Assembly (NCBI GenBank): GCA_026988125.1
Contig: JALSLU010000118.1
Span: 1 to 44,971, forward strand
Reading direction: 5' to 3'
Length of the DNA: 44,971 bases
DNA from: Sulfurospirillum sp.
GTDB taxonomy: Bacteria; Campylobacterota; Campylobacteria; Campylobacterales; Sulfurospirillaceae
Made by a program: the position numbers and the translations under genes. How positions within the stretch are numbered: the first letter of the stretch is position 1; each line of letters starts with the position of its first letter. The notes under the pieces are model-generated. The model did not search any database, was not told the DNA's origin, and was given only the letters and a program-made list of their open reading frames with translations. Positions 8,067 to 29,410 of the stretch are shown in pieces.

Positions 8067-9230
8067 CTAAGAAAGCTCTTTTTCTCTCGCATCGATAGCA
8101 TTTTCCATCCTTTTTAAAGCTTCTTTAAGTCTGCTTCTTTGGGTTCCAAAGTTTAATCTTAAAAAGTTTTTATCTCCAAATGGCTCTCCACTACTTAAAC
8201 CAACTCCATAGTTTAAAAAATACTCATAGGGATCATTTAGTTTTAATTTGCTAACATCTATCCAAGCTAAAAATGTTGCGTCTTGATTTAAAAGTTTTAA
8301 GCTTTTATTTTGGTTTACAAAGTTTTGTACAAGTTCTAAATTTTCTTTTAAGTATAATCTTAATTTTTCAAGCCACTCTTCGCATGATTCATAAGCCACT
8401 CTTGTTGCTTCAATAGCAAGTAAGTTTACACCACAGCATATATCTTTCATCTCTTTTTGAAACTCTCTTCTTAAATCTCTATTTGGAATTATTGCTAGCG
8501 AGCTTTGAAGTCCAGCTATATTAAAAGTTTTACTAGGAGCTAGAAGTGTTATGGTTTTATTTGCAATTTGCTCACTTAGTGAAGCAATTGGGATATGAGA
8601 GGCATTTGGATTTAGGATTAAATCTGCGTGAATTTCATCTGAGCATATAGTTATGTCATATTTTAAGCAAATTTTGCTCAACTTTTCAAGCTCATCTCTT
8701 CTAAAAACTGTTCCACCAGGATTGTAAGGATTGCAAAACATAAATAATTTACACTCTTTTGTTATTTTTTTTTCAAACATATTAAAATCTATTGTCCATC
8801 TATTTTCTTTTTCAACCATTGGAACTTCAACTATGTTTTTACTAGCATTTTGGGGAGCTTTTTTGAAGTGAGGGTAGATTGGTGTATTTATCAAAATGTC
8901 GTCTCCTTTGGTTATTTTGGAAACTACATTCATGCTACTTACAACGCCACAGCCATTCCATACTATCCATTCACTTTTTATATCCCAGTTGTAGTTATTT
9001 TTTATAAAATTTTTTACGCTATTTATTGTATCTTGATCCATAATTGTATAACCAAATATACCATGACTTACTCTTTTTTGTAGGGCATCTATAATTGGTT
9101 GAGGAGATTTAAAGTCCATATCGGCAACCCACATAGGTAATATATCGCTACTTTTGTATTTTTCCCATTTTATTGAGTAAGTGTTTGATCTATCTATAAT
9201 TTTATCAAAAAGCTCCATTTGTACTTCCAA
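8067..9230 (-). CDS. MalY/PatB family PLP aminotransferase (cystathionine beta-lyase type)
   Basis: LPMWVADMDFKSPQPI, FCNPYNPGGTVF, SDEIHADLIL, LAPSKTFNIAGLQSS, RLNFGTQR. Confidence 0.9.
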   Translation of the reverse strand: MEVQMELFDKIIDRSNTYSIKWEKYKSSDILPMWVADMDFKSPQPIIDALQKRVSHGIFGYTIMDQDTINSVKNFIKNNYNWDIKSEWIVWNGCGVVSSMNVVSKITKGDDILINTPIYPHFKKAPQNASKNIVEVPMVEKENRWTIDFNMFEKKITKECKLFMFCNPYNPGGTVFRRDELEKLSKICLKYDITICSDEIHADLILNPNASHIPIASLSEQIANKTITLLAPSKTFNIAGLQSSLAIIPNRDLRREFQKEMKDICCGVNLLAIEATRVAYESCEEWLEKLRLYLKENLELVQNFVNQNKSLKLLNQDATFLAWIDVSKLKLNDPYEYFLNYGVGLSSGEPFGDKNFLRLNFGTQRSRLKEALKRMENAIDAREKELS

Positions 9231-9242
9231 TTAGCTATTTAT

Positions 9243-9284
9243 TTAAGGGCACCTCTAAAAACCAGTTTTTAAAGGTGTCCTTAA
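9243..9284. repeat. 42-bp near-perfect palindrome; solo copy of the element A outer arm
   Basis: ttaagggcacctctaaaaacc / agtttttaaaggtgtccttaa. 18 nt (9246-9263, agggcacctctaaaaacc) match the reverse complement of 12259-12276 exactly. Confidence 0.85.
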
Positions 9285-9321: not shown

Positions 9322-10077
9322 TTGAGTTATCTGTTTTTAATTTTGGTTATAGTTATTTTTTATCTTTTAACAAGAGGGTACAAAACTGAGCAATATTCTA
9401 CGATTGAGCCAAATAAAACCCAAAAGCTAAGAGGAAATTTGAGAGATCATGAAGCTGGTCTTTTGGTTGCTTTGATGGCAAAGGTTGCAAAGGCTGATGG
9501 GAGAGTAAGTGAACTAGAAGCTGAGCTTTTAAGTCATACTTTTACAGATATTTCAAAAGTTTTTAGCAATCCTGATGAAATTAGAGAAGAGTTAAAAAAG
9601 ATTTATAATGAGGAAAAAAATAGCTTTGACAATACACTTTTACTAGCTAAGAAGTACTTAAAACTATCAAAATGGGACTATTTAAGAAGAGTTAAAATTA
9701 TGGAGTATTTGCTAAATTTAGCCTTTATAGATGGTGAGTTTAGTAAAGAAGAGAGGATGATAACTGAAGATATAGCATCTGCTTTAGAGATAAGAGATAG
9801 TGACTTTAAAAATTTGATAAAGCAGTTTGAAGCCTTTTATGCTCAAAGAAAAAATCAAGTAGGTATGGATATAAAAAGAGCTTATGAAGTCTTAGGTTTG
9901 GAAGAGGGTGTTGAGTTTGGCGAAGTTAAAAAAAGATACAGAAAACTAGTAAGACAAAATCATCCAGACATCCTTATGGGGCAAGGTAAAGATAGCTCAA
10001 TCATAGATGAGGCAACTAAAAAACTTCAAGAGATCAATGAGGCTTATGAGCTTATAAAGAAAAATTTAGTAAAATAG
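9322..10077 (+). CDS. TerB-like/DnaJ-domain protein (DjlA-like)
   Basis: TerB-like helical region ([24 protein letters not shown]) and C-terminal J-domain ([31 protein letters not shown]). TTG start. Confidence 0.85.
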
Positions 10078-11714: not shown

Positions 11715-12059
11715 TTGGAAATAGATGTAAAAGATGGTCAAATTCAAATAGAGATTTATGTTAGGGACAATATAAAAAGTATATCGGATAACGATAGACT
11801 TAAGCATACTATAGAGCAAGCATGTAAAGCTGATGATAAAAAACCTGTTCACATACATATAAAGGACTCATTTATAATTACATCTTCAGTTATAGGTTTT
11901 TTAATTAAGTATATAAAAAAAGATAAATTCCCAATCTATCTGTATGTTTATAATCAAGAGTTATATGATATGCTTGATGATATGGATTTAATTGGTCTGT
12001 TAAATATAAAGGGCGCCTCTAAAAACCCTAGCATATCTCAGAGGGATAAAAAAAGATGA
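11715..12059 (+). CDS. STAS-like small protein; last ~16 residues encoded by element A
   Basis: Short alpha/beta protein (HIHIKDSFIITSSVIGFLIKYIK) resembling STAS; terminal [15 protein letters not shown] lies within the palindromic element. Confidence 0.6.
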   Translation: MEIDVKDGQIQIEIYVRDNIKSISDNDRLKHTIEQACKADDKKPVHIHIKDSFIITSSVIGFLIKYIKKDKFPIYLYVYNQELYDMLDDMDLIGLLNIKGASKNPSISQRDKKR

Positions 12060-12276
12060 GATTGTGAAAAATCTTTTTTGAAGCGTAGCTGAAGCTACGG
12101 TGATAAAAAGTTTTTTGCAATATCGCTTTTTTTATCCCTCCCTTAGGGCACTACATAGGAGCTTACACTCTTCGTTACTCTTTTTCGCCTTAGCTTTGGC
12201 TAGGGCTTCAAAAGAGTGCCTTAATTGTAAACTCCTATGTAGTGCTGAGATATACTAGGGTTTTTAGAGGTGCCCT
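12010..12276 (-). repeat. Nested palindromic element A (reverse orientation relative to element B)
   Basis: Outer arms 12010-12041 / 12245-12276 (30/32 matching); hairpin 12041-12055 / 12126-12140 with apex CGTAGC-TGAA-GCTACG (12084-12099); palindrome CCCTTAGGG 12140-12148; hairpin 12148-12167 / 12226-12245 (19/20) with apex GCCTTAGC-TTTG-GCTAGGGC. Confidence 0.92.
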
Positions 12277-12285
12277 AAGAAAGGT

Positions 12286-28103: not shown

Positions 28104-29410
28104 GTATAGATAGTATATTGTTGCTAGTTAGTATAGTAGGAGCCATTGGAGTTAGTAGTGCTGTTGTAATATGGCAGATAAAATCTCTATATGTAGCTCA
28201 AAGAGAGTTTTTGTTTGAAAAGATTAATGAGATAGAAAAGACTCTTATGGATAGCTCAAAAGATACAGCCCAAAAGGTTGAGAAAAATAGTGAGCTGTTT
28301 GCTAGGATTTTAGAATCTAATGAAGTGCTAAAATCAAACTTACAAAAATCACTCTTCGATATGAGCAAAGAGATTGAAAAAACTCTTGTACAAAGCTCAA
28401 AAGATACAGCTTTGAAAGTCGAGAAAAACAGTGAATTGTTTGCTAAGATTTTAGAATCTAACGAGATTTTAAAAGCTAGTGTCCAAAAGTCCTTATTTGA
28501 GATGAGTACGCAGATAAGCAAAAAGAGCTCACAAGATATAGAAAAACTTACTCAGAAGGTTGAAGAGAAGTTAGCAAAGATAAATGAAAAGGTTGAAGAG
28601 AGGCTCTCAAAGGGTTTTGAAGATATAGACAAGACATTTAAAGACATCATAGTAGGAATTGCCAAAATTGGCGAAGCTCAAAAGAAGATTGAGTCTCTTA
28701 GTAGCGAGGTTACATCTTTGCAAGGTGTTTTGACGGATAAAAAGACAAGAGGAATCTTTGGTGAGGTTCAGCTAAATAGTATCTTAAGCTCAATTTTTGG
28801 AGAAAAAAGAGATCTTTATGACCTCCAATACACTTTTGAGGGCGGAGTCATAGCCGATGCAGTTATAAAAGCACCTAAGCCTTTGGGATTGGTTGCTATT
28901 GATGCGAAGTTTCCTTTGGAGAACTTTACTAAAATGACTCAAGATAGCTCCTTTGCAAGTGAATTTAAACAAAATATAAAAAAACATATAAACGACATAA
29001 GCTCAAAATATATCATCAAAGGGACAACAGCGGATATGGCAATCTTGTTTTTGCCAGCTGAGGCTATATTTGCCGAGATTAATGCCTATCATGAAGATTT
29101 GATTGAGTATGGAAGAAAAAGAGGGGTTTGGATAGCCTCTCCAACAACTCTTATGGCACTTCTAACAACTATAACCGCCATTGTGCGAGATATAAAGACT
29201 CAAGAGCAAGCCAAGAAAATCCAAGAGGAGTTAAGAAAGCTCTCTAACAATTTTAGGTTATACAAAAAAAGATGGGATAATCTCTCAAAGCATATAGATA
29301 CAGTCCATAAAGATGTAAAAGAGATAAACATTTCAACCCAAAAGATAACAAGCGAGTTTGAGAAGATTGAGAGGGTTGATTTTGAAGATGATAAGGCCTT
29401 GTTAGAGTAG
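28100..29410 (+). CDS. rmuC: DNA recombination protein RmuC
   Basis: N-terminal TM, coiled coil, core RGIFGEVQLNSILSSIFGEKRDLYDLQYTF, VAIDAKFPLENF, ASPTTLMALLTTI. Confidence 0.93.
   Translation: MSIDSILLLVSIVGAIGVSSAVVIWQIKSLYVAQREFLFEKINEIEKTLMDSSKDTAQKVEKNSELFARILESNEVLKSNLQKSLFDMSKEIEKTLVQSSKDTALKVEKNSELFAKILESNEILKASVQKSLFEMSTQISKKSSQDIEKLTQKVEEKLAKINEKVEERLSKGFEDIDKTFKDIIVGIAKIGEAQKKIESLSSEVTSLQGVLTDKKTRGIFGEVQLNSILSSIFGEKRDLYDLQYTFEGGVIADAVIKAPKPLGLVAIDAKFPLENFTKMTQDSSFASEFKQNIKKHINDISSKYIIKGTTADMAILFLPAEAIFAEINAYHEDLIEYGRKRGVWIASPTTLMALLTTITAIVRDIKTQEQAKKIQEELRKLSNNFRLYKKRWDNLSKHIDTVHKDVKEINISTQKITSEFEKIERVDFEDDKALLE
28229..28507 (+). repeat. Tandem duplication of ~47-aa (141-nt) unit in RmuC coiled coil
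   Basis: EIEKTLMDSSKDTAQKVEKNSELFARILESNEVLKSNLQKSLFDMSK followed by EIEKTLVQSSKDTALKVEKNSELFAKILESNEILKASVQKSLFEMS. Confidence 0.9.

Follow-up and report, generated by a model that had tools for sequence, protein, structure and literature searches.

An intergenic palindrome in Sulfurospirillum sp. raises the question of how a short inverted repeat, which shares its arms with a longer structured element (element A), came to stand alone. The DNA analysed, called here the window, is a whole stretch of 44,971 nt (contig JALSLU010000118.1, assembly GCA_026988125.1), and a preliminary description of it left three options for the palindrome: a derivative of A that consists only of terminal inverted repeats, a deletion remnant, or a founder palindrome.

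The palindrome and its insertion site

The preliminary description had placed a 42-bp palindrome at 9243-9284, between divergent malY-like and TerB/DnaJ-like genes, with 18 nt common to one of its arms and the reverse complement of the right arm of A. These observations were reproduced. The sequence is as written, 18 of the 21 arm positions pair, the hairpin folds as DNA with -11.2 kcal/mol (z = -5.2 compared with shuffles), and protein domains identify the two flanking genes (Table 1). AGGGCACCTCTAAAAACC, at 9246-9263, is the exact reverse complement of 12259-12276 at the right end of A, and the left arm of A (12010-12027) differs from it by one base. When up to three mismatches are allowed, the end sequence has four matches in the window, where 0.08 are expected. 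The mobile element proper spans the inner 34 bp and is bracketed by a 4-bp target duplication, TTAA. The terminal inverted repeats are 17-bp ends in the palindrome and 32-bp arms, 94% identical, in A; the three arm mismatches of the palindrome fit G-to-A or C-to-T changes in its right arm. A covariance model, R1, whose training set comprised full-length A-type copies only, matches the palindrome (E about 2e-6) as a full element that lacks its central part.

Table 1. Features of the window, with the basis of each assignment
Feature	Position	Strand	Basis
Class I/II aminotransferase gene, PatB/MalY-like, flanks palindrome	8067..9230	-	PF00155, E 1.5e-33
Left target duplication of solo palindrome, TTAA	9243..9246	none	Sequence; target duplication statistics; single-TTAA empty site in sister species
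Solo palindrome, 34-bp MITE derivative with terminal inverted repeats only (GGGCACCTCTAAAAACC / AGTTTTTAAAGGTGTCC)	9247..9280	none	Sequence, fold, covariance model R1
Right target duplication of solo palindrome, TTAA	9281..9284	none	Sequence; target duplication statistics
TerB + DnaJ domain gene, flanks palindrome	9322..10077	+	PF05099 + PF00226
Small ORF, end supplied by A, upstream of chemotaxis-like gene	11715..12059	+	Relatives end 2-4 codons beyond conserved LNI/LNV
Left target duplication of A, TAAA	12007..12010	none	Sequence; TAAA/TAAG pair
Element A, full-length 265-bp MITE of the palindrome's family, three-hairpin fold	12011..12275	+	Alignment, fold, covariation, R1
A left terminal inverted repeat	12011..12027	+	Inverted-repeat scan; end matching
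A hairpin 1, cap TAGCTGAAGCTA	12042..12139	+	Fold, alignment
A CCC-TTA-GGG mini-hairpin at junction	12140..12148	+	C-G in every alignment row with letters (helix 6)
A hairpin 2, cap TTAGCTTTGGCTAGG	12149..12244	+	Fold, alignment
A right terminal inverted repeat	12259..12275	-	Inverted-repeat scan; end matching
Right target duplication of A, TAAG, one mismatch	12276..12279	none	Sequence; target duplication comparison
Element B, second structured MITE, 266 bp, ends CTGACCTTACGCACTATAA	27112..27377	+	End search, copies, R1; fold and hairpin-1 cap as in A

Among 87 distinct copies of the family, the 4-bp flanking duplication was exact in 51, compared with 9 of 87 in a rotated control, and duplications of lengths other than 4 bp were at or below background. 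The commonest target sequences were TTAA, TTTA, TTAT and TAAA. In sister species the palindrome locus is an empty site with a single TTAA (L209, L211; ATATTTAAGGTATTATAGTAAAATA in L209, compared with TATTTATTTAA (34 bp) TTAAGTTATTTTAGTAAAATA in the window); since these species are only about 67% identical in the flanking protein, this empty site is read in diverged sequence. An empty site was also found for A (L239-L242). None of 79 copies examined was inside a long ORF, by a crude test that could miss ORF-inserted copies. A itself is inserted in the last codons of the small ORF that precedes the chemotaxis-like gene, about 16 codons and the stop of which now come from A.

The divergent intergenic site, beside a conserved AT-rich stretch (TTTTAGTAAAATA) that the upstream alignment places between the palindrome and the TerB/DnaJ gene, is also where a host regulatory element of terB or malY might be expected (an operator, REP-like unit or terminator), in which case the ends of A would have copied the palindrome. 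However, the palindrome is absent upstream of the orthologous terB gene in five sister species, searches in it for a terminator or a sigma-70-like promoter gave no match, and the target duplications mark it as an insertion, so that a host origin has next to no probability.

Dispersal of the family and its IS5-type ends

The outer arm of A had been described as a dispersed repeat, probably from a mobile element, a proposal that would lose its ground if the 18-mer were absent elsewhere in the genome and from all IS ends. It was found in both. In the organism's own assembly (1.87 Mb in 176 contigs, several of which end inside element copies), the end sequence occurs at 66 places, compared with 3 for the reversed control (up to three mismatches). 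Besides full elements of about 265 bp, there are copies with intermediate deletions (181 and 226 bp), palindromes of only 27-53 bp, decayed single ends and copies truncated where a contig stops. Full-length, folded relatives are present across this genome and in many related bacteria, often from deep-sea vents. An exact scan of GTDB genomes gave at least 106 stretches with the end sequence; among the matches listed, nearly all were from Sulfurimonas, Helicobacteraceae, Sulfurovum and other Campylobacterales MAGs, and one was from a Saprospiraceae bin. Among sampled genomes of the class, 43 of 397 carried the end sequence, belonging to 17 of 68 genera; it was found in none of the sister species sampled, nor in other sampled genomes of the organism's own family.

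One genome (G389) stood out with 181 matches to the end sequence, a copy number far above that of any other, and had no detectable transposase of the type carried by the IS5-family element L179 described below. In the Saprospiraceae bin, the matching element (L119, 1415-1574) is 160 bp long and has A-type ends with a partial target duplication; it represents either a cross-phylum occurrence or a binning error.

The nearest foreign copies, in Sulfurimonas sp. 355-202, have 95% and 93% DNA identity to a copy of the own genome, and the QueA-like protein encoded next to one of these copies shares about 55-57% identity with its own-genome counterpart. Because copies are 95% identical in DNA while this housekeeping protein is at 57%, the A-type family seems to have passed between Campylobacteria lineages.

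Full elements (265-324 bp, mostly stem) contain no transposase gene, the ORF list giving only the tail of the neighbouring ORF that enters A. Insertion sequences of the IS5 family, from other Campylobacteria and from one phage contig, have matching ends and likewise 4-bp duplications. One of them is intact (L179; 1270 bp, ends GGGCACCTCTAAAAA/GGGAACCTCTAAAAA, target duplication TTAA) and encodes a 343-aa transposase; another, from the window organism's own family, has a broken transposase (L173; 1237 bp, TTAT), and a third is on an IMG/VR contig (L169; 1296 bp, CTCT). The L179 and L169 proteins scored 264 and 273 bits, respectively, with the NCBIfam model NF033581 (IS5 family; cut-off 140), and the models matched by the helper transposases were NF033581, PF05598 and PF01609. 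The same left end lies next to a related transposase in another genome (G269). Insertion sequences with these terminal inverted repeats thus exist and, together with the 4-bp target duplications and the empty sites in sister species, they bear out the derivation of the outer arm of A from a mobile element. Since the ends match IS5-family elements and 4-bp duplications are found there too, the family is, judging from its sequence, a non-autonomous MITE predicted to be moved by an IS5-type transposase. It has in common with IS5-family insertion sequences (NF033581 group) the outer 15-18 bases and the 4-bp target duplication, and differs from those found here in having no transposase gene and an interior unrelated beyond about 18 bp. 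Searches of the own assembly with DDE_Tnp_1 (PF01609), or with either IS5 transposase as query, detected no transposase; the missing helper can be a real loss or an assembly gap, as many copies lie at contig ends and repeats may be unassembled.

Like the family described here, known bacterial MITEs such as QMITE2 of Coxiella and Chunjie of Geobacter are short, non-coding and intergenic, with terminal inverted repeats, target duplications, strong folding (predicted there for the transcripts) and truncated copies that resemble extragenic palindromes (reviewed in PMC10969869). In the literature searched, we found no earlier description of MITEs in these bacteria and no occurrence of the end sequence of A. 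The family does not fit REP/BIME repeats with a linked Y1 (RAYT) transposase: insertion without target duplication is expected for them, and the copies here have clear 4-bp duplications.

Shortened copies and the origin of the palindrome

Transposons with inverted repeats can undergo 'nearly precise excision', a slippage-type deletion across the hairpin; in the Tn10 type, a short outer-end palindrome is left between intact target duplications and the deletion ends at short direct repeats. The short copies of the A-type family were compared with every full copy as a left part plus a right part. Perfect deletion derivatives were found in L085 (39 bp, from an L153-like copy, with five shared bases at the junction), L104 (48 bp, two shared bases) and L138 (57 bp, three shared bases), and L098 (50 bp) is a deletion derivative with one mismatch and three shared junction bases. 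The target duplication is intact in all four, and several shortened copies carry direct repeats of 2-6 bp at the deletion junction. For the 34-bp copy of the window, the best fit places the junction at base 17, with two mismatches. No direct repeat was seen at this junction and the arms differ by three substitutions; therefore, the deletion is not directly readable in this copy.

Other short copies can be derived from full ones by internal deletion with zero mismatches, and short direct repeats mark the points where their two parts join; for this reason, a deletion remnant reduced to its terminal inverted repeats is the best of the three options of the preliminary description, and the founder palindrome found no support. 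By analogy with the other shortened copies, the solo palindrome is most likely an internal-deletion remnant of the same kind. As with Tn10 excision remnants, it is a short outer-end palindrome between intact target duplications; it differs from them in that its parent is a small MITE with a natural three-hairpin structure and that a direct repeat is not visible.

The palindrome might instead be a minimal transposing form, inserted directly as 34 bp with no later deletion. Its target duplication is intact, as such an insertion would leave it, and short copies of similar length exist, namely two of 51 bp of A type and three of 54 bp of B type (element B, see below). Against this, short A-type copies vary in length and junction and there is no exact second copy of the palindrome, several short copies derive from full ones and show shared bases where the deletion was joined, and a 34-bp DNA would have almost no spacer between two transposase-binding ends. 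We consider direct insertion of the short form unlikely. CCTAGG occurs in each arm of B, and a deletion from one of these copies to the other would give exactly the length of the three B palindromes.

We conclude that the palindrome is probably the terminal-inverted-repeat remnant of an IS5-mobilised MITE, the interior of which was deleted after insertion at TTAA. On this reading, the target was a TTAA upstream of the terB/dnaJ gene, where an IS5-type transposase acting in trans would have placed a copy. The interior of this copy would then have been lost by a slippage-type deletion across the hairpin, and what remained, end repeats and target duplication included, would since have decayed by point mutation.

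Fold of the parent family and its relation to element B

Copies from different genera have about 50-60% identity to the family of the window, yet their length is 264-269 bp, and the outer stem is preserved in them together with hairpins 1 and 2 and a CCC-NNN-GGG mini-hairpin. In a covariation alignment of 33 sequences with mutual identity below 90%, pairing cells amounted to 95.9%, compared with 79.6% in shuffled and 39-51% in slid alignments; the covariation score was 0.474 (0.16 shuffled, about 0.1 slid), and 67 of the 95 base pairs showed double-sided changes. Such very strong covariation and so deep a fold would be expected if full elements were selfish structured RNA genes, one of which left the palindrome as its remnant. 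However, G-U cells (50) and A-C cells (53) are balanced, with no preferred strand, among the 80 pairs predicted on both strands; copies show no orientation bias relative to adjacent genes (20 in the same direction, 15 in the opposite one), and no Rfam match reached the gathering score in the window or in L184, L185 and L207. The RNA-level explanation was dropped after the G-U versus A-C and orientation tests, and a structured RNA as the source of the palindrome is very unlikely. The Rfam matches near A were miRNA-like, scored well under the cut-off and are put down to chance.

Since the G-U/A-C balance favours neither strand, the alignment fits pairing that acts at the DNA level, which may come about through selection or through template-switch repair of the arms. 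Preservation extends to unpaired positions and to motifs such as GCGTT and GCCTTG, which would tend to argue against simple homogenisation. The strongly preserved fold of the parent element is unusual. Unlike MITEs of the QMITE2 and Chunjie type, A-type copies keep a length of 265-269 bp across genera despite drift to about 50% identity, with pairs kept by double-sided changes, and one fold is found with two unrelated sets of ends. ERIC and Correia/NEMIS are likewise intergenic, strongly foldable, MITE-like palindromic dispersed repeats; the present family differs from them in its ends, sizes and host groups, and has no Rfam family at gathering score.

The second set of ends is that of element B, the repeat of which has 55 ends in the own genome (0 in the control) and a length of 266 bp in all nine full copies examined. 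Its ends are different from those of A, and the direct repeats that flank it are longer, about 5-8 bp where A-type copies have 4. B ends are absent from IMG/VR, and a transposase for B was not detected. In plasmids, neither the ends of A nor those of B gave more than chance matches. R1, built from A copies, matches B full-length on either strand with E values of 1e-18 to 1e-31, a score of which part is shared structure. In addition, up to 22 bases at corresponding places (position 70-72) are identical between B and A, compared with at most 12 in shuffles. By coordinate comparison with the end matches, 27 of the 28 hairpin-cap matches in the own genome are in A or B, and the remaining one is in unrelated coding sequence. 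The likeness of the A and B cores would be explained if they had a common ancestor and the ends were exchanged, and also by gene conversion from one core to another. We suggest only tentatively that a conserved 266-bp three-hairpin DNA 'chassis' may be the unit of selection, its terminal repeats being exchanged and different transposases carrying it, with the solo palindromes as deletion debris of A and B; length, fold, hairpin caps and unpaired motifs would then be kept while the ends change.

Other repeats were observed in the course of this analysis. One element with B ends (L304, 144-409) has a strongly diverged interior and is still 266 bp, with the fold and A-like motifs (GTTAC, GTGCCTTG). 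A B-type copy (L316, 128-359) is broken by another long inverted repeat (CCCAAATTATGCAATAGGATT...), which also occurs near A-type ends in L003 and L004 and is a possible third palindromic repeat family. In the window, two tandem 141-bp repeats, 74% alike, lie in a coding region (28214-28495).

In conclusion, the solo remnant is nothing out of the ordinary as a kind of object, and its history is well supported; the structured parent family is the more interesting of the two. Scattered short palindromes are explained as deletion footprints with visible precursors, and nearly precise excision, a laboratory phenomenon, becomes readable from natural genomes. One copy, A, rewrites the end of a gene. 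The parent family, in which neither strand is preferred and both length and pairing persist while sequences diverge widely, offers a good test of selection for DNA fold in small mobile elements.
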